From: Singulisphaera sp. GP187
GTDB taxonomy: Bacteria; Planctomycetota; Phycisphaerae; Phycisphaerales; SM1A02
Assembly: GCA_945871445.1 (NCBI GenBank)
Contig: CAMBWI010000010.1
Span: forward strand, 1-49,838
Reading direction: 5' to 3'
Length of the DNA: 49,838 nt
The notes beneath the pieces are model-generated. The model was not told where the DNA came from. It worked only from the letters and a program-made list of their open reading frames with translations, and did not search any database. Both the position numbers and the translations under genes were made by a program. Below, piece by piece: positions 17,258 to 24,447 of this stretch. Position 1 is the stretch's first letter. Each line of letters begins with the position of its first letter.

Positions 17258-17530
17258 ATGGCAAAGGCAGTCGTTGATCCAAATGAACTCCGTCGATTTG
17301 CAGCTGATTTGCGCAAGTTCAACCAAGACTTGCAATCGGGTATTTCGACCATCGGCGGACGAATGAATACCCTCGCTCAAACATGGCGCGATCAGGAGCA
17401 GCAGAAATTTGCAGAGGAATTCGATCAGACTTTGAAGGTCTTGCAACGACTCATGAAATCGAGTGAGGAGCACATTCCGTTTCTCATCCGAAAAGCTGAC
17501 CGAATCGACGAATATCTTCAGCAGCGCTGA
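17258..17530 (+). CDS. WXG100-like small helical protein
   Basis: This 90-residue, wholly helical, highly charged protein has Trp43-Arg44-Asp45 at the middle turn (LAQTWRDQEQQKFAEEF). That is the position and size of the WXG100/ESAT-6 fold (about 100 residues, helix-turn-helix with W-x-G); here the Gly is replaced by Asp. There is no signal peptide and no membrane segment, as in type VII secretion substrates. It is the first gene of a four-gene run ending in an EssC-like ATPase, which supports the assignment strongly. The canonical C-terminal YxxxD/E export motif is not obvious: after the Trp turn the helix ends in ADRIDEYLQQR. It may be a substrate or a structural partner. Confidence 0.78.
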   Translation: MAKAVVDPNELRRFAADLRKFNQDLQSGISTIGGRMNTLAQTWRDQEQQKFAEEFDQTLKVLQRLMKSSEEHIPFLIRKADRIDEYLQQR

Positions 17531-17541
17531 ACGGAAATTCA

Positions 17542-18162
17542 ATGGAATCCGGAGCAAATCTTCAAGATTCTCAGACACTGATGGCTACGAAGGCGATGCT
17601 TTTGAAAGCATCGCAAGGATTTGCAACCGCAATTGAAGAAGCCCAGTCAGATGCAGAGCGGTTTGGGAAGTGGCTCAATTCCGAGGGACCCGCCCATTGG
17701 GAGCGACAACGCCGACTTCGGACCGAAAAACTGAACATGGATCGTTCCGCACTCGTTCGAAAGGAAATGCAAATGACCGCCGATGGTCGCCCCCCATCGA
17801 CAGTGGATGAACGCAAAACTGTGCAACGTTCTGAGGAAGCAGTACGACAATCTGAAAATTGCCTTCGACAACTTCGCAAATGGGCAATCGAGTATCAGCG
17901 TGTGCTTGCACAGTTTCGTGCTGGATTTTCGCCACTTGCAACTTATGTTGATCAAACAGTTCCCGCAGCGGTGATTTCCTTAAATCGAATGGCGCAAGCA
18001 ATCGATATGTATCTGAGGACTGCGCCTGTCAAGGTCGATTCAACTTTATCGGCTTTGTTAGACGATGCAGCCCTAAAGACCTCTCCCGAATCCGACTCCA
18101 ACTCCAACGCTTCTATGCGAAGAGGTGGCTCAGATTCACCTTCTGGAGACGGCAAGCAATGA
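17542..18162 (+). CDS. Coiled-coil protein of the type VII-like locus, function unknown
   Basis: This 206-residue hydrophilic protein is not recognised as a named family. Residues about 5-155 are predicted to be mostly helical with long charged heptad-like stretches (for example RSEEAVRQSENCLRQLRKW), consistent with coiled coil. The last 40 residues are Ser/Asp/Gly-rich and probably disordered. There is no signal peptide or membrane helix. It begins 11 bp after the WXG100-like gene and overlaps the next gene by 4 bp (ATGA), so all three are surely one transcript. By position it could be a chaperone, substrate or LXG-like partner, but no such motif is seen. Confidence 0.72.
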   Translation: MESGANLQDSQTLMATKAMLLKASQGFATAIEEAQSDAERFGKWLNSEGPAHWERQRRLRTEKLNMDRSALVRKEMQMTADGRPPSTVDERKTVQRSEEAVRQSENCLRQLRKWAIEYQRVLAQFRAGFSPLATYVDQTVPAAVISLNRMAQAIDMYLRTAPVKVDSTLSALLDDAALKTSPESDSNSNASMRRGGSDSPSGDGKQ

Positions 18163-18377
18163 GTGAAGGAACGAATAAAGCGAAGTTAAAAGACACACTT
18201 CGAACTCTCAATGAACAATGGGCTTCACTGCACGCCCAATGGAGAGATTCCGCAAGCGAGACCATCAATCGAGAAGCAGTCCAGCCTGCAAATGATGCAG
18301 TGCGAGTTGCTATTTTGGCACTCGAACAATTGTCAGAGACGATTTCCAAGGCACGACGCGATTGCGATTCAGGATGA
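18159..18377 (+). CDS. Second, shorter WXG100-like protein
   Basis: The product is 72 residues, hydrophilic and helical, starting at an ATG that overlaps the previous stop. It carries Trp28-Arg29-Asp30 in LHAQWRDSASETINREAV, nearly the same W-R-D turn as the first small protein of the locus (TWRDQEQQKF), followed by a second helix. The resemblance suggests the two are diverged paralogues that could form a heterodimer, as EsxA/EsxB pairs do. At 72 residues it is shorter than a normal WXG100 protein. The assignment rests on the motif, the size and the neighbouring ATPase gene. Confidence 0.65.
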   Translation: MSEGTNKAKLKDTLRTLNEQWASLHAQWRDSASETINREAVQPANDAVRVAILALEQLSETISKARRDCDSG

Positions 18378-18410
18378 ATAGCACCTGCAATTGCTCTGCA
18401 CAATTTCTCT

Positions 18411-18416
18411 TATGAT
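18411..18416 (+). promoter_or_regulatory. -10-like TATGAT placed for leaderless EssC-like mRNA
   Basis: TATGAT is followed by exactly six bases and then the GTG at 18423. The gene lies 45 bp behind the previous one, and no Shine-Dalgarno site is seen, so it may be transcribed separately from the small proteins. Confidence 0.45.
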
Positions 18417-18422
18417 TTAGGT

Positions 18423-21400
18423 GTGACATCATTGATACCTGTTGAAGCAAATTGCCAAGGTCAAGATCTTCCCAATTTGGGCGAGAGAATTTTGCGGACA
18501 CTTCTGACTGCGCCGGCACAACGAATCGAAATGGAGCAGGCCCTAGCGGAATTGCGATTTGAATTACATGACCCAGAAATGAATCGTCACGCAACGGAAT
18601 TGGCGAGTTTGAGTGCAGCTCTGACGCAGCAGCGTGAAACGATAACCACTCGGTGCAACGAGGCGAAGGATTCGTCTTCAAAACGCACGGAACGCCAACG
18701 ATCAAAATTAGATACAAACGAAAAAGTTGGTTTGCTTTCGTTAAGTGATTATCGCGATACTCAAATTGATTCTATAGAGCAAACTACTGAGGAATCGAAA
18801 TGGACAGCTGATGCGATCTATGAATCACTCGAGCCTCAGCCAGGCATAGAGTTCAAACGTGCTCGCAGTGAGATAGATCAGTCCGTGCAAGAGATTATTG
18901 AACAAGTCCAACAAGTCGAAAAACTGCTCCAAAAAGCTCGCATCGGATTGGCACCAATTCCGATGCAAGAAGTCGATTTGTCCCATTCAACTCCACGACC
19001 TCATCTACTTCTCTCAGAACAGTTGGATTGTGCAAAAGTGACGCTCAAGGATTTACGTTGCAAGCCACTCAACATTTTCGCAAGGAATTGGGCGGCACAT
19101 TTGGCCTTGCTTATTCTTCTATCTGCATCATTTTTTGTAGTCATCTTTCTCACGGCAGGTCGGGAAACTACCCAAGATTTTCGAATTTTGATTCTTGCTG
19201 GTCTTGTTATCTGTTTGATCCAAAGTGGTATCTGGATTTGGGCGGGGATTCGATTGAAGCCATCGGCCTTGATCATTGCAACAGTACAATTACGAACACG
19301 AGAAGCGGGGAGAATCGCATTAGAAGCTCTTCAACTCAAGCGCAGCGAACAAGAAAAGGTATTCCTCAATCAGCACCAGAAAGAACATTTGACTGCTCAG
19401 CAAGCGATGAATCCCAAGCGAGTCGCAATCGAGGAATTTTATCGGAAAAAATATTCAGAACTGGTTGAAACTGCGGATCGTTTGCGACGAAATGCTGTCG
19501 CACAATATGAAACAGCAATTATCGAGATCGAACAGGACGCAACGCGCGCATTTGAGAAAGCGCACCAGACAAATGACCTCTCCCTCTTGGAAGAGGAGAA
19601 TCGTCACAAAGGGCGAATGGTGGAAATTGCAGCAGTTCTTTCCATGCGAGAACAAACTTTGCGTTCCCAGTGGAAGCAGTCAAGGGACCAAGTATTTATA
19701 GACACGCAACAAACGATGAACTTGGATCGTAAATTCTTTCCATCTTGGACTGATGATTTATGGGAACAATTTTGTGGGCGGACAACTTCGAGCGGCGCAG
19801 CCAAAATCGGAACTGTGACGGTGACCCTCAACTCTATTCCAGGTGCTTTACCTGTGGACCCAGACTTGGCATGGCCATCTGGTTCTCCCAGAATCATTCA
19901 CGTTCCCATTGCATTGACATTTCCCTCTCGTGCTTCTCTTTTGATCGAAACGAATCAAGAGGGTCGTTCTGTTGGAACCGCCCTATTGCAGGAAACAATA
20001 TTGCAGATCTTGACCGCATTGCCGCCTGGGCAAGCACGCTTTACGATTATTGATCCGGTTGGACTTGGTGAAGGGTTTGCCGCATTTATGCATCTTGCGG
20101 ATGAGGCTGAACATCTTATTGGTGAGAGAATATGGACCGATTCCAGACGCATTGAGCAGAAATTGACTGATCTCTGCGAACATATGGAAACGGTCATACA
20201 GAAATTTCTGCGTAATGAGTTCGCAGATCTTGATCAGTACAACCAACAAGCTGGAGAAATCGCAGAGCCTTACAGATTCCTAGTGATCGCTGATTTTCCG
20301 ACAGGCTTGACAGATATTGCAGCGAAACGACTTGCAAGCATCGTCAATAGCGGAACGCGCTGCGGAGTCTTTACGATCATTCTTCGCGACCTTCGTCAGC
20401 CTCTGCCACCTGAAATCGACATTGCAGATATTCGAAGTCGTTCGCTTTGCGTTCATTGGAAAGAAAATCGTTTCGTCGTATCCGCGGAACCATTTTGTCA
20501 CTTTCCATTCACGCCAGGGTCGATTCCAGAGAGCGAAAAAACGATTTCACTTCTCAAACGGATCGCTTTGACGGCAAAGAATTCCAAGAAAGTCCAAGTT
20601 CCATTTTCTGCGATAGCGCCCAAAGATAATGCTCTTTGGTCAGAGTCCACAGCGCAATCAATCACCATCCCTTTGGGTCGTTCTGGAGCCACGCGATTAC
20701 AAAGTATTACGCTTGGGGTGGGTACAAGTCAGCACGCATTGATCGCAGGAAAAACTGGATCTGGAAAGTCCACTCTCCTGCACGCATTGATCACCAATCT
20801 TGCACTGCGATACAGCCCAGACGAAGCCGAGTTATGGCTTATCGACTTTAAGAAAGGTGTTGAATTCCGTACATATGCCACGAATCGACTGCCGCATGCT
20901 CGCGCAGTTGCAGTTGAAAGTGATCGAGAGTTTGGTCTTTCAGTTCTTCGAGGACTTGATGCCGAACTTCGTCGACGAGGCGAGATTTTTCGGGATCGAT
21001 CTGTGCAAGATCTAGGTGGATATCGCAGAATTGGTGCCAGCGAGAAAATTCCACGCACTCTGCTTATCGTTGACGAATTTCAAGAACTCTTCACCGAAGA
21101 TGACAAGGTTTCGGAGGAATCTGCACTTCTCCTAGATCGTCTTGTACGTCAAGGGCGAGCATTTGGAATACATGTCATTCTTGGCTCGCAAACTCTTGGC
21201 GGCGCATATTCAATCGCTCGTGCCACAATGGGTCAAATGGCTATCCGCATTGCTCTGCAGTGCAATGAGGCTGATTCGCAGCTCATTCTTTCAGACGATA
21301 ATGTTGCAGCACGATTGCTTTCGCGCCCAGGAGAGGCGATCTATAACGACGCAGGCGGTTTGATCGAAGGCAACAATCCATTTCAAGTTGTTTGGCTTCC

Positions 21401-22334
21401 AGATGATGAGCGTGACCAAATTCTTGCGAAGATCCGTAAACGAAATGAAAGCCACCCAACATCTGACCGTCCACAAATGATTGTCTTTGAAGGAAGCGCT
21501 CCAGCGAATCTCGAAACAAATCAAATTCTTCGAGCCGCAAAATTGAAGCGAGATCGTGGCGAAACTTCTGGTCCAGGACTCTTATGGTTTGGAGATGCGA
21601 TATCTATCAAGGATCCCACTGCTGTCATTCTCCGCCGGCAATCTGGAACAAACATCATGCTTGTGGGGCAACGCGAAGACGCAGCGCTAGGAATTTCTGC
21701 AGGAGTTTTGGTCTCACTTGCTGCGCAGTACAAATCCGGTGGATGCCAACTCTTTCTGCTTGATGGAACACCGCCAGATGACGAAAATTTTGGTCGCCTT
21801 GGAGCACTTCAAGAGCGCCTTCAAATTTCTGGTGCTTCAGGAGGTTTGCGAGATGCAAACTCCGTTTTGGAAAAGGTGACTGCCGAACTTCTGCGCCGGC
21901 AGAGTGAACAGAGCTCGCAATCTCCACCGTGCGTCATCCTCGTTCACGCAATCCATCGCTTCAGAACTCTGCGCCGAAATGAAGATGACTTTGGATATTC
22001 ATCTTCTGGCGATGCTCCGCCAACCCCAGATAAATTGCTGGCAACATTGCTTCGCGAAGGTCCTGCGCTTGGAATTCATGTCATGGTGACTTGCGATGGA
22101 GCGACAAACCTTGGTCGATCCTTTGACCGCAATTCGATTCGAGAATTTGAGTGGCGTTTGCTTTTCCAAGTCAGCGCATCAGATTCGAGCACGCTGATTG
22201 ATTCCCCCATCGCAAGTCGACTCGGACCCCAACGCGTGATTCTTCACAGCGAGGAAACTGGTACTCAAGAGAAATTCCGTCCATATGCATGGCCATCGAC
22301 GGATTGGCTCGATCGATTTTTCCCACGCCAATAA
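18423..22334 (+). CDS. EssC/EccC-like FtsK/SpoIIIE-family ATPase of a type VII-like secretion system
   Basis: This 1303-residue membrane-anchored translocase begins with a long hydrophilic coiled-coil region (about 1-220). Two adjacent membrane helices follow (about 224-246 and 252-276), then a second coiled coil (about 285-430), where EssC would have FHA domains only before the helices. Three FtsK-like ATPase modules come next. The first (about 495-700) and third (about 1040-1300) lack a P-loop. The middle one is canonical, with Walker A GKTGSGKST at 776-784 and Walker B LLIVDE at 880-885. Three modules after a paired helix anchor is the architecture of type VII ATPases rather than of DNA-pumping FtsK, and no gamma DNA-binding domain is seen. 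The start is GTG at 18423. It follows two WXG100-like genes. Confidence 0.88.
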   Translation: MTSLIPVEANCQGQDLPNLGERILRTLLTAPAQRIEMEQALAELRFELHDPEMNRHATELASLSAALTQQRETITTRCNEAKDSSSKRTERQRSKLDTNEKVGLLSLSDYRDTQIDSIEQTTEESKWTADAIYESLEPQPGIEFKRARSEIDQSVQEIIEQVQQVEKLLQKARIGLAPIPMQEVDLSHSTPRPHLLLSEQLDCAKVTLKDLRCKPLNIFARNWAAHLALLILLSASFFVVIFLTAGRETTQDFRILILAGLVICLIQSGIWIWAGIRLKPSALIIATVQLRTREAGRIALEALQLKRSEQEKVFLNQHQKEHLTAQQAMNPKRVAIEEFYRKKYSELVETADRLRRNAVAQYETAIIEIEQDATRAFEKAHQTNDLSLLEEENRHKGRMVEIAAVLSMREQTLRSQWKQSRDQVFIDTQQTMNLDRKFFPSWTDDLWEQFCGRTTSSGAAKIGTVTVTLNSIPGALPVDPDLAWPSGSPRIIHVPIALTFPSRASLLIETNQEGRSVGTALLQETILQILTALPPGQARFTIIDPVGLGEGFAAFMHLADEAEHLIGERIWTDSRRIEQKLTDLCEHMETVIQKFLRNEFADLDQYNQQAGEIAEPYRFLVIADFPTGLTDIAAKRLASIVNSGTRCGVFTIILRDLRQPLPPEIDIADIRSRSLCVHWKENRFVVSAEPFCHFPFTPGSIPESEKTISLLKRIALTAKNSKKVQVPFSAIAPKDNALWSESTAQSITIPLGRSGATRLQSITLGVGTSQHALIAGKTGSGKSTLLHALITNLALRYSPDEAELWLIDFKKGVEFRTYATNRLPHARAVAVESDREFGLSVLRGLDAELRRRGEIFRDRSVQDLGGYRRIGASEKIPRTLLIVDEFQELFTEDDKVSEESALLLDRLVRQGRAFGIHVILGSQTLGGAYSIARATMGQMAIRIALQCNEADSQLILSDDNVAARLLSRPGEAIYNDAGGLIEGNNPFQVVWLPDDERDQILAKIRKRNESHPTSDRPQMIVFEGSAPANLETNQILRAAKLKRDRGETSGPGLLWFGDAISIKDPTAVILRRQSGTNIMLVGQREDAALGISAGVLVSLAAQYKSGGCQLFLLDGTPPDDENFGRLGALQERLQISGASGGLRDANSVLEKVTAELLRRQSEQSSQSPPCVILVHAIHRFRTLRRNEDDFGYSSSGDAPPTPDKLLATLLREGPALGIHVMVTCDGATNLGRSFDRNSIREFEWRLLFQVSASDSSTLIDSPIASRLGPQRVILHSEETGTQEKFRPYAWPSTDWLDRFFPRQ

Positions 22335-22410
22335 TTGAGTATGCGGGATTGTTCAATCAAGAACCAAGAATTGAATGGACTTCGCAGTACGGACAAACGC
22401 ATCTCTGCGC

Positions 22411-22416
22411 TATCAT
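22411..22416 (+). promoter_or_regulatory. -10-like TATCAT before tRNA-Val(TAC)
   Basis: TATCAT ends nine bases before the mature tRNA. The same hexamer occurs at almost the same distance before tRNA-Arg(ACG) (42488-42493). No good -35 box is evident here. Confidence 0.4.
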
Positions 22417-22425
22417 CCATTCTTC

Positions 22426-22499
22426 GGGCGCTTAGCTCAGCTGGCTAGAGCACTGCCCTTACATGGCAGGTGTCACAGGTTCGAATCCTGTAGCGCTCA
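22426..22499 (+). tRNA. tRNA-Val(TAC)
   Basis: A 74-base cloverleaf. The acceptor stem is GGGCGCT/AGCGCTC with one G-T pair, and the discriminator base is A. The D arm is GCTC/GAGC. The anticodon stem is CTGCC/GGCAG with loop CTTACAT, giving anticodon TAC (valine). The T arm is ACAGG/CCTGT with loop TTCGAAT. CCA is not encoded. A long open frame runs through the tRNA into the FlgI-like gene, but it is not real there. Confidence 0.97.
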
Positions 22500-22578
22500 T
22501 TTGTTTTATTTGGTCCTTCTGTTGCCTTTTTCTGCCTCAGACTTTTCAGATTCAATCGTCTTTGCTTCGAGCCTATTC

Positions 22579-24447
22579 ATGCGACTTATTTTCGTCCCAC
22601 TCTTTCTCGCCGTGACCTGTGTATTGGGTGTAGGTGCGTGCTCAAACATTGAAAAAGCCGACCCAACGCTAGCGCCAAAACGCGCCGCTCGACCCCCCAT
22701 CCCACTTGATGTGGATCCGATCATGCGCGGCACGGTTGCAAGCGAGACAATCGTCATGGGATATCAGCCGGTGGTCGTTCGAGGTTACGGATTTGTGGTC
22801 GGGTTAAAAGGAACAGGAAGTCGTACAGCTCCGGCTGAAGTTCGGCAATACATATTGCGCGAGATGATGCGCTATGGTGTGGGCGAGTTATCTGGAAATT
22901 CCCAGGTCCTCAATCCTGAAGCGCTCATTAATTCGGAAGATACTGCGATCGTCATCGTCGAAGCTTTGATTCCAGCGGGAGCTCCGCGAAACACGATGTT
23001 TGATGTTCGTGTCTATGCCGCACCTGGAACAAGCACAACAAGTCTCGAAGGTGGAACACTCTGGACGACGGAACTTCGGCCAGGAGTTTTGTTGGTTGGA
23101 AGCCGAGAAATTCGTTCGATGGCTGAAGCGAAAGGTCCAATCATTATCAATCCATTTTCTGATGACTCCAATCGAGCCCAAACGATGGTCAATCAATTGA
23201 GTGGACGAATTCTCAATGGTGGTAAATCGCTCAAACAACTTCCAATTAAGTTAGTGATGGCAACTCCGAGTCATTCGCGTGCTCGACTGATTGGAAGTGC
23301 GATTAACTCCAACTATCCCCGAGAACCTGGGCAGCGTGGAGAAACTGCCAATGGCGTCTCTGGCGAACTTATCACAATCGATGTGCCGCCATCGTGGCAC
23401 AAACGATCCGATGAATTTGTCGAATTACTTCGGCATACATCTGTAAATGTCGGCCCAATTGATGCGACAGCGATATCGATTGCGCGTGCGCTGACCAACA
23501 ATCCTGGTGCTGCAAATGCAGCAAGCCTTCGATGGCAAGCTTTGGGTCCAAAGAGCATTTCTGCAACTCGAACTTTGTACGACTATGCAGAAGAGCAACC
23601 ACGATTTGCTGCATTGCAAGCTGGAGCTCGTCTGAATGATGCTTTAGTTGTTCCGCAACTTCTCGCGATGGCTCAAAGTGGAAGTGCAGAATTACGCGTT
23701 CCGGCAATTCGATTGCTCCAAAGAATGAGCATCAATCCAGCGATTGATCTTGGACTCCGACCGTTGCTTGATGACAGCGATATCGATGTACGACTTGCTG
23801 TCTACGAAGTCTTGCGAGAACGCAAAGACCCGATTGTTCAAAGTCAAATGGTTGGGAAGAAGTTTCGAATTGATGTCGTGCCAAGCAAATTCCCAATGAT
23901 TTATATCAGCCAGTCTGGACAACCTGTGGTCACAATTTTCGACCAAGATATGAGCGTGAAAACACCTATGAATTTGCGCGCATGGGATGGCAATCTGTTA
24001 TTCAAAGCCGAAGAAGGCGAATTAAACTTCAGCGTTTTTTATAGGCGAATTTCTGGTAGCGAACCGATCGTCGATAAGGTGAGTGTGAAAGTCCCGGAAC
24101 TCGTTCGATTTTTAGGCCACACCTCCGATGCAGCCAATCCTGCTTCAGGAATGGGGATGACCTACAGCCAAACTATTGGTGCGATCTATGCTCTCTCTTC
24201 AAAAGGGTATTTGCCAGGATCCTTCAAGGTTGAACAAGATCGAATTATTGCTGCGATCGCCAAGGCGGGAGCCGAAGCCGAGCGTACGGACCGTCCAGAA
24301 TTCATCGAGGATGAAACAGTTGGATCGGATCAGCCTTCGGTTGCGAGTTCAAATGTTCCTGGGCTGACGCCAAAGCTTGGAAATGGAACAAGTTTTACAG
24401 AAAATAATGATCCAAGCGGTCCAAAAACAGATATCGTGCCTCGATAA
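22579..24447 (+). CDS. FlgI-like lipoprotein with HEAT-like repeats
   Basis: The 622-residue product starts at the ATG at 22579, which opens a lipoprotein signal sequence: basic start, hydrophobic core and lipobox GVGAC with Cys near residue 21. Residues about 60-330 resemble the flagellar P-ring protein FlgI (VVRGYGFVVGLKGTGSRTA, VEALIPAGAPRNTMFDVRV, SLEGGTLWTTEL). After about residue 345 comes a helical HEAT-like stretch (VPQLLAMAQSGSAELRVPAI, LLDDSDIDVRLAVYEVL). A final beta-rich part and a disordered tail follow. True FlgI is about 350-370 residues with a Sec signal and no lipid anchor, and no flagellar gene is near. The protein is probably an outer-membrane or periplasmic component derived from the P-ring fold; its function is unknown. 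Confidence 0.82.
   Translation: MRLIFVPLFLAVTCVLGVGACSNIEKADPTLAPKRAARPPIPLDVDPIMRGTVASETIVMGYQPVVVRGYGFVVGLKGTGSRTAPAEVRQYILREMMRYGVGELSGNSQVLNPEALINSEDTAIVIVEALIPAGAPRNTMFDVRVYAAPGTSTTSLEGGTLWTTELRPGVLLVGSREIRSMAEAKGPIIINPFSDDSNRAQTMVNQLSGRILNGGKSLKQLPIKLVMATPSHSRARLIGSAINSNYPREPGQRGETANGVSGELITIDVPPSWHKRSDEFVELLRHTSVNVGPIDATAISIARALTNNPGAANAASLRWQALGPKSISATRTLYDYAEEQPRFAALQAGARLNDALVVPQLLAMAQSGSAELRVPAIRLLQRMSINPAIDLGLRPLLDDSDIDVRLAVYEVLRERKDPIVQSQMVGKKFRIDVVPSKFPMIYISQSGQPVVTIFDQDMSVKTPMNLRAWDGNLLFKAEEGELNFSVFYRRISGSEPIVDKVSVKVPELVRFLGHTSDAANPASGMGMTYSQTIGAIYALSSKGYLPGSFKVEQDRIIAAIAKAGAEAERTDRPEFIEDETVGSDQPSVASSNVPGLTPKLGNGTSFTENNDPSGPKTDIVPR

Follow-up and report, generated by a model that had tools for sequence, protein, structure and literature searches.

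A conserved four-gene module of WXG100-type proteins and a predicted membrane-anchored EccC/EssC-like ATPase in planctomycetes and related bacteria

Can an ATPase of the EccC/EssC kind, encoded with three small helical proteins, act as a secretion machine in a bacterium with two membranes? Descriptions of type VII secretion come mainly from Gram-positive phyla, and such machines have barely been studied in bacteria with two membranes. The question is raised by a 49,838-nucleotide stretch of DNA (hereafter the window) from Singulisphaera sp. GP187, in which four consecutive plus-strand open reading frames lie within positions 17258-22334; it bears on the smallest working type VII machine. The module recurs in the Planctomycetes–Verrucomicrobia–Chlamydiae (PVC) group, which includes cultured planctomycetes. 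In our judgement there is about an even chance that it is a variant of the WXG100/EssC-like operon, anchored in the membrane and carried on the chromosome, which would move a complex of two WXG proteins and a long hairpin protein through the ATPase's own pore. A 2023 review mentions, in the portion available, WXG100 genes beside FtsK/SpoIIIE genes in certain Gram-negative bacteria, unconfirmed as secretion systems (PMC10765036), and for this question the module provides a defined, conserved four-gene test object.

Gene content, co-inheritance and order

The original prediction, made from the letters of the window, described four consecutive genes, and their coordinates were confirmed:

17258..17530, plus strand: wxg1, WXG100 protein with a W-R-D turn, 90 aa; above the PF06013 cut-off
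17542..18162, plus strand: long alpha-hairpin protein, 206 aa; AlphaFold2 model, no Pfam family
18159..18377, plus strand: wxg2, shortened WXG100-like protein with a W-R-D turn, 72 aa; below the PF06013 cut-off
18423..22334, plus strand: predicted membrane-anchored EccC/EssC-related ATPase with a GTG start, 1303 aa; FtsK_SpoIIIE match at 7e-35

The gaps fit a single operon: 11 nt between wxg1 and the hairpin gene, a 4-nt overlap between the hairpin gene and wxg2, and 45 nt between wxg2 and the ATPase gene. The promoter search saw two sites against 4.5 expected by chance.

Inheritance was followed in a near set of 61 genomes, namely the window genome (2.26 Mb in 96 contigs, 82% complete) and 60 relatives, a score above 400 bits being taken as presence of the ATPase. 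By this threshold 40 of the 61 are carriers; 47 genomes match at E 1e-10, seven of them through weak FtsK-like matches which were left out of the 40. Profile searches found wxg1 in 37, the hairpin gene in 38 and wxg2 in 38 of the carriers, and each of the three in 0/21 ATPase-negative genomes. All three partners are missing from G009 and G028, and wxg1 from G029, these genomes being 70, 74 and 82% complete respectively; the loci of G028 and G029 reach contig ends and G009 holds only the end of the ATPase. The whole module is missing from G002 (90% complete) and G030 (96%). The order wxg1-hairpin-wxg2-ATPase is found in 34 of the 37 near-set loci read. Two exceptions (L061 and L066) reach contig ends. 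The third, L062 in G034, has the trio on another contig, which stops 39 bases past the wxg2 match, and other genes, among them a topoisomerase by our own reading, upstream of the ATPase; this could be either a genuine split or a break in the assembly. At L040 (G020) about 1.3 kb separates the hairpin gene from wxg2, unlike the other loci of the near set. Since the proteins are conserved and co-inherited in relatives, the module is not a product of chance. No recurrent family was found to join the four genes in the operon, clusters being judged by size and first residues without Pfam.

When GTDB species genomes were scanned, at least 590 stretches matched the pattern and 337 were confirmed as relatives. 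The 80 best of these were retained; they favour the closest relatives and overlap the near set (L111 and L062 are the same record). Among the best 80 of the 337 are Planctomycetota (Phycisphaerae, Planctomycetia, Gemmatales, Isosphaeraceae, Pirellulales, Kuenenia and others), Verrucomicrobiota (L104, L125, L143), Lentisphaerota (L134) and three records titled 'bacterium' only. Thus the idea of a specifically planctomycete version proved too narrow. One record titled Alphaproteobacteria (L131, PBMH01000006.1) has a typical PVC-type module and is perhaps a misnamed metagenome-assembled genome. At least 1.5 kb of upstream sequence is present at 53 of the best 80 loci, with the full trio in order in 48 of these. 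Across the phylum the ATPase was found in 78 of 391 sampled genomes (65 of the 280 good ones), scattered between families.

Architecture and relationships of the ATPase

The ATPase is predicted to consist of a coiled coil, two transmembrane (TM) segments (at about 227-245 and 255-273), a coiled coil or stalk, and three modules, in agreement with the membrane-anchored, three-module protein first proposed. The stalk and a degenerate first module resembling the domain of unknown function (DUF) of EccC/EssC span about 390-720, the active middle module carries a Walker A motif at 776-784 and the residues DEF at 884-886, and a degenerate last module occupies about 1020-1293. All three modules are RecA-like in an AlphaFold2 model of residues 110-1303 (mean pLDDT 77, pTM 0.52). 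The motif G....GK[ST] occurs once per ATPase, in the middle module only, in 38/38 rows (the window and 37 loci), and in a 25-row alignment the coiled-coil N-terminal parts vary, TM segments are seen, and the three modules are strongly conserved. When a TM-like segment is defined as a hydrophobic stretch ahead of the modules with a 19-residue mean of at least 1.6, at least one is present in 37 of the 38 rows, the exception being an incomplete contig, and in 66 of 67 ATPase rows from named genomes, the exception being L145.

The ATPase is nearer to EccC/EssC than to FtsK, as judged by profile scores and by the stalk-plus-DUF-like region. The NCBIfam models give 114 bits for EccCb, 111 for EccCa, 103 for EssC and 35 for FtsK, with no equivalog cut-off reached (that of FtsK stands at 1566 bits). 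The structural comparison with EssC that the original prediction had suggested came out in its favour: in a Foldseek search of the PDB, ranks 1-8 are all EccC/EssC chains (best 4e-27), with FtsK from rank 9 (3e-10). In VIA-align, model residues 281-611 match the part that comprises stalk and DUF in EccC5 (7b9f, Z 15.0; 7npt, Z 14.8), YukB (9qks, Z 14.7) and ESX-3 (6umm, Z 14.6); FtsK is not known to possess such a region. The first module is assigned to the DUF from structure, since its sequence profile has no significant match in the PDB (EccC5 being the best, at E 0.15). By sequence the middle module is closer to the first than to the second ATPase domain of EccC (in both EccC5 chains, and narrowly in that of T. 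curvata), whilst the profile of the last module matches EccC5 at 5e-4, chiefly in the second ATPase domain. The likely layout is DUF, D1 and D2 (or D3), one module fewer than in EccC/EssC; the last-module profile favours D2 as the one kept, and structure gives high Z scores to chains of both.

A tree of the middle module (D1; 43 rows), rooted on FtsK by our choice and subject to a long-branch warning, shows groups and not the deepest order. The PVC rows fall together (96/91), as do the EccC/EssC D1 domains (95/84) and FtsK (100/98), and the PVC rows share one side of the tree with six plasmid or contig relatives (94/96, not starred). The D1 profile scores these relatives at 158-273 bits, EccC at 86, EssC at 89 and FtsK at 50-61.

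Clustering with FtsK in a phylogeny would have refuted the original prediction, and the tree thus also bears on whether the ATPase might be a DNA translocase of the FtsK or conjugation kind. Such a function is favoured by the structure of the active module, which is tied between FtsK (Z 25.5, for the middle module) and EccC (Z 24.8, for the middle-plus-last pair) and lies near TcpA (Z 22.7). The FtsK group of the tree, however, comprises six FtsK-like rows, two of them from module carriers and one from a further carrier-family genome, and branches apart from the PVC rows; 32 of the 40 carriers possess a second FtsK-like match of their own; the first and third of the three modules lack a P-loop; the WXG100 partners are co-inherited; and the EccC/EssC models score three times the bits of FtsK. 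A DNA translocase consequently appears very improbable. The FtsK translocase has a C-terminal DNA-reading gamma domain, and none was seen among the 21 rows of a general Pfam scan, no search having been aimed at this domain. A phage or viral origin was rejected: an IMG/VR scan returned two weak FtsK-like matches among 166 pattern stretches, and none of the 211 matching records in phage collections spans 80% of the ATPase.

The helical partners and their plasmid relatives

The two tiny proteins with a W-R-D turn fared unequally as WXG100 candidates. wxg1 matches PF06013 at E 6.3e-9 and 36.4 bits (cut-off 27.3), this being the single match of the family in the window genome, adjoining the ATPase. 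It is the best-conserved small protein of the set (mean column identity 73% in a 24-row alignment), and its profile finds in the PDB 3fx7 (HP0062, E 5.7e-12), 4j42 (EsxB, presumably the B. anthracis protein, 4.5e-9) and 2vs0 (EsxA of S. aureus, 2e-4), which supports its identification as a WXG100-type hairpin. The W-x-D motif is kept among close relatives in 35/35 rows of wxg1 and 36/36 of wxg2. At 20.9 bits (E 4e-4) wxg2 falls under the PF06013 cut-off, and hhalign relates it to wxg1 at E 6e-5 with a probability of 65%; on these scores it appears weakly related to WXG100. PF06013 matches once per genome in 25/25 PVC genomes searched, and LXG (PF04740) in 0/25, the latter model scoring in B. 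subtilis and, below its cut-off, on a Limosilactobacillus plasmid. Additional WXG or LXG substrates were rejected on these counts.

The third protein had been called an unrecognised coiled-coil protein. It indeed has no meaningful Pfam family (best E 0.06) and no LXG match in the Pfam scan, but its model shows an extended antiparallel alpha-hairpin, with helices at 10-76 and 88-160 (67 and 73 residues), followed by a disordered tail (pLDDT 83, pTM 0.59). Foldseek gives no match at E 0.001 or better, no PDB entry is matched significantly by the profile (best 0.015, over short stretches of MHC type), VIA alignments with Z up to 10.9 reflect generic long helices and are uninformative, and hhalign assigns a relation to wxg1 a probability of 2%, which does not demonstrate one. 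RRxG is present in 19 of 36 rows. The protein is probably cargo or scaffold.

Amongst 93 hairpin homologue matches, 84 have fewer than 60 residues behind the hairpin and nine have a C-terminal extension of 157-187 residues (L044, L047, L067, L076, L087, L093, L095, L132 and L141), with a DSGW-type motif in most. An Imm33-like domain (PF24719) is above cut-off in five of these nine, and a significant nuclease match was found in 0/9. In these, an immunity-type domain would be fused to the putative cargo of a putative export module.

Plasmids of Deinococcus, Rhodococcus (two), Caballeronia and Helicobacter encode relatives of the ATPase, as does a gut contig that bears the label bacteriophage. 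The wxg1 profile, with E values for a set of 29 sequences, detects genes beside the ATPase in Caballeronia (2e-24), Helicobacter (2e-16), Rhodococcus AH-ZY2 (1.5e-14) and Deinococcus (3e-9), and is weak in Rhodococcus R79 (0.009) and the gut contig (0.01). On the plasmid of Helicobacter sp. (NZ_AP024820, L169:5740-10142) a WXG protein, a nuclease protein, SMI1/KNR4 (1.6e-6), a 77-aa protein and an EssC-like ATPase follow in series. The nuclease protein, in the place of the hairpin, has a helical part and a Colicin-DNase/WHH nuclease end (PF14414, 1e-11), so that by its gene content this looks like a toxin-immunity-ATPase cassette, with no clear TM gene. The Caballeronia operon runs WXG, 436 aa, 113, 76 and ATPase, amid VWA, CARF, PP2C and kinase (TerY-P-type) genes; in the C-terminal half of its 436-aa protein, which has no Pfam match, we read a D-ExK-like stretch. 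The PVC hairpin profile matches the slot proteins of Rhodococcus AH-ZY2 (1e-8) and Caballeronia (2e-5), values which coiled-coil composition may inflate. In all, the long-hairpin gene looks like a modular slot: one mobile version at least has a toxin there, and in the PVC group there is usually nothing further.

Two of these relatives carry additional genes. On Deinococcus actinosclerus plasmid CP029776 (L149:9264-14503) the ATPase gene is accompanied by genes for a separate membrane protein, two WXG-like proteins, a coiled-coil protein of 326 aa and a wxg2-like protein of 144 aa. Gut contig MT836827 (L150:584-7371) encodes a ThiF-family protein, an EssC-like ATPase and a WXG-like N-terminus ahead of an HExxH stretch.

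In the window the module is flanked on one side by genes for DnaG, RpoD and, by our reading of the sequence, an aldehyde-dehydrogenase-like protein, and on the other by FlgI-like and SMC genes. These flanking clusters reappear in 8 to 20 of 37 relatives' loci, and the flanks are not the same in other groups. A tRNA-Val (TAC) gene lies immediately 3' of the ATPase gene (22426-22499, plus strand). The FlgI-like protein (22375-24447, plus strand) matches PF02119 (flagellar P-ring) with a sub-cut-off HEAT-repeat match behind it; its true start is probably downstream, because the frame listed from 22375 runs through the tRNA-Val.

Export, remodelling and the known systems

If the module is an exporter, the ATPase would probably sit in the inner membrane as a hexamer, each subunit being anchored by two TM helices. 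The first RecA-like module would take the DUF position, the second would hydrolyse ATP and the third would be inactive. wxg1, the hairpin protein and wxg2 would probably assemble into a single complex, an elongated helical bundle like that of LXG-Lap1-Lap2 or PE-PPE, which the ATPase may recognise and pass across the inner membrane at the expense of ATP, its own TM helices forming the pore. With the hairpin as a modular slot, of which most PVC versions have a short tail only, the PVC cargo would be a toxin-free helical protein. An ATPase with two TM segments could in principle line a pore alone, because EccC TM helices contribute to the pore of ESX-5. As far as the accessible parts of these papers go, PMC8232910 describes a central ESX-5 pore made from EccC TM helices, with EccB and EccD as scaffold, and PMC8131196 likewise supports EccC TM helices in it. 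The claim that any pore here must be unlike the known ones is accordingly not upheld.

A number of observations weigh against export. The scaffold reported for ESX-5 includes EccB, which was not found here, and release outside a diderm cell would need an outer-membrane or periplasmic partner, of which none is known. No YxxxD/E motif was found in the last 25 residues (trimmed rows) of 35 wxg1, 36 wxg2 and 36 hairpin sequences. The relation of wxg2 to WXG100 is weak, the first-module sequence profile is silent, the active module is tied with FtsK by structure, and the hairpin profile misses the helical part of the Helicobacter toxin, for which reason homology of the slot is positional there. The closest plasmid relatives of the ATPase have no clear TM segment: none is seen in Caballeronia, Deinococcus or the gut contig, and those of Helicobacter and the two Rhodococcus plasmids each have a single borderline one (1.62-1.71), with a separate small protein bearing a strong TM segment in Deinococcus and Rhodococcus R79. 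A WXG protein with an EssC-like ATPase therefore need not mean secretion.

Gene order adds to these points. The synteny that the original prediction had proposed to survey is conserved near the window; one or more trio genes are nevertheless absent nearby in five of the 53 named-genome loci (no trio within about 5 kb upstream of the ATPase at L092, L103, L105 and L111, and no wxg1 match at L119). Of seven distant planctomycete genomes read, G273, G364 and G386 keep the full module in order, and four (G081, G148, G280 and G421) have no trio beside the ATPase. All four belong to family f34 (ATPase loci L165, L177, L178 and L180; wxg1 loci L174, L175 and L176), as does G273 with its intact module. 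In G280 the trio stays together about 480 kb from the ATPase; in G081 and G421 wxg1 is far from the ATPase, and neither the hairpin gene nor wxg2 was found beside wxg1, where they were looked for; G148 was read around the ATPase only. Each of the five distant genomes searched for wxg1 (G081, G280, G364, G386 and G421) contains it, and the gene is retained even when remote from the ATPase (G081, G280 and G421). Such scattering weakens the operon argument in the distant genomes, albeit not the co-occurrence near the window.

The absence of a clear TM segment in the plasmid relatives, one of which stands amid VWA, CARF, PP2C and kinase genes, lends some weight to a different function, which we regard as possible though less so than export. 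The ATPase would then be a membrane-tethered machine for remodelling or sensing, acting with its WXG and hairpin partners inside the cell, in the manner of the defence-associated, TM-less CoCoNuT/TerY-P operons, and settled on the chromosome. The portion of PMC11090510 to hand deems a mechanism differing from that of EssC likely where TM segments are absent, and the lack of an export motif and the presence of an Imm33-like domain in place of a toxin on some hairpins are in line with this. TM-like segments, on the other hand, are kept throughout nearly all PVC rows, which a cytosolic remodeller would not need, and no recurrent additional family was found in the operon, the grouping of genes by size and first residues leaving room for a TerY-P or CARF gene among the clusters. 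Matches in PADLOC (SspH, mad8, HerA and mad3) are confined to the middle module of the ATPase, with none on the three small proteins, and a defence-family identity was rejected on this ground.

Might the module instead belong to a canonical type VII system, with the genes for its remaining membrane components lying at other places in the genome? Searches covered YukD, EccB and EssB, whilst EsaA, EssA, EccE, the membrane part of EccD and mycosin were not searched by model. For the three covered, the absence claimed by the original prediction was borne out, each being found over cut-off in 0/20 carrier genomes. The YukD control scored in B. subtilis; the EccB control was silent, and on repetition that model scored on a mycobacterial plasmid and in 0/8 PVC genomes; EssB gave one sub-cut-off match, in G036. 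Divergent forms may escape these models, the window genome is incomplete, and the four genes are themselves apart in some distant genomes, all of which would suit a dispersed system. Against it stand the negative searches, the want of a further recurrent operon gene, and the single WXG100 match and missing LXG in every PVC genome searched. A canonical system with hidden parts was rejected as a candidate on the YukD, EccB and EssB searches, and we consider it unlikely.

A stronger form of the export reading can be entertained as a possibility, though less likely than not: a distinct and old class of PVC exporter in which one ATPase would serve as motor and pore, with no need for EccB/EccD/EccE or EssA/EssB/EsaA, delivering a toxin-free complex into the diderm envelope, the mobile toxin-carrying operons being its TM-less cousins. 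Were it true that the ATPase alone makes the pore, T7SSa and T7SSb (T7SS, type VII secretion system) could have gained their accessory membrane components later, in each lineage separately.

The module can be compared with four known systems. It resembles the T7SS in that a WXG100 protein is encoded with a membrane ATPase of EccC/EssC type, possessing a TM pair, a stalk-DUF-like region (recognised by structure) and tandem RecA modules. It differs in having three modules in all, whereas T7SSc-j ATPases have four NTPase domains according to the part of PMC11217815 available; in lacking YxxxD/E; in its PVC hosts; and in that YukD, EccB and EssB were not found over cut-off in PVC carriers. The LXG-Lap1-Lap2 complexes of T7SSb provide a parallel for the trio, since LXG toxins, as described in the accessible part of PMC9600955, form complexes with two small hairpin proteins, Lap1 and Lap2, and are recruited in that form. 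In both cases a long helical cargo domain is encoded alongside two small hairpin proteins, although the PVC hairpins show no LXG match and no recognised toxin domain.

A third comparison is with H. pylori, in which WxG and FtsK constitute a minimal T7SS set in the portion seen of PMC4978471. The core H. pylori cluster described there pairs an FtsK/SpoIIIE-family gene with an HNH/EndoVII nuclease, the identity of that gene with HP0066 not being stated in that portion. The available part of PMC3397514 reports that HP0062 has been solved as a four-helix dimer, that its turn contains WRD and that its cluster includes an FtsK/SpoIIIE gene. HP0062 is the best solved match of wxg1, and the two share the WRD turn and the FtsK/SpoIIIE-type gene nearby; unlike the H. 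pylori cluster, the PVC modules read contain no nuclease.

WXG100/EssC-like operons associated with CoCoNuT and TerY-P, whose ATPases have no TM segment, were published in 2024 in eLife (PMC11090510, part seen). Together with PMC4978471 (likewise seen in part) this shows that operons of this kind were already known. In a similar layout, the same part of PMC11090510 counts three domains, of which only the central one (D2) is active. Shared features are the EssC-like ATPase of three modules with the central one alone active, a coiled coil at its N-terminus, a pair of WXG100-type proteins of which one lacks the classic motif, and a coiled-coil protein in the place of the cargo. The PVC ATPases differ in having TM segments, which the CoCoNuT-type ATPase lacks, and the PVC hairpins are mostly without an extra domain, the nine extended ones showing no significant nuclease match. 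Furthermore, the PVC module is chromosomal in the large single-contig genomes read, unlike its plasmid relatives. No description of a TM-anchored PVC module was found in the literature searched, coverage of which was partial. Because two features of the T7SS (the fourth NTPase domain, and YukD, EccB and EssB) and two of the CoCoNuT-type operon (the TM-less ATPase and the nuclease fusion) are not seen here, the module is placed outside both classes, as a variant of the wider WXG100/EssC-like kind of operon.

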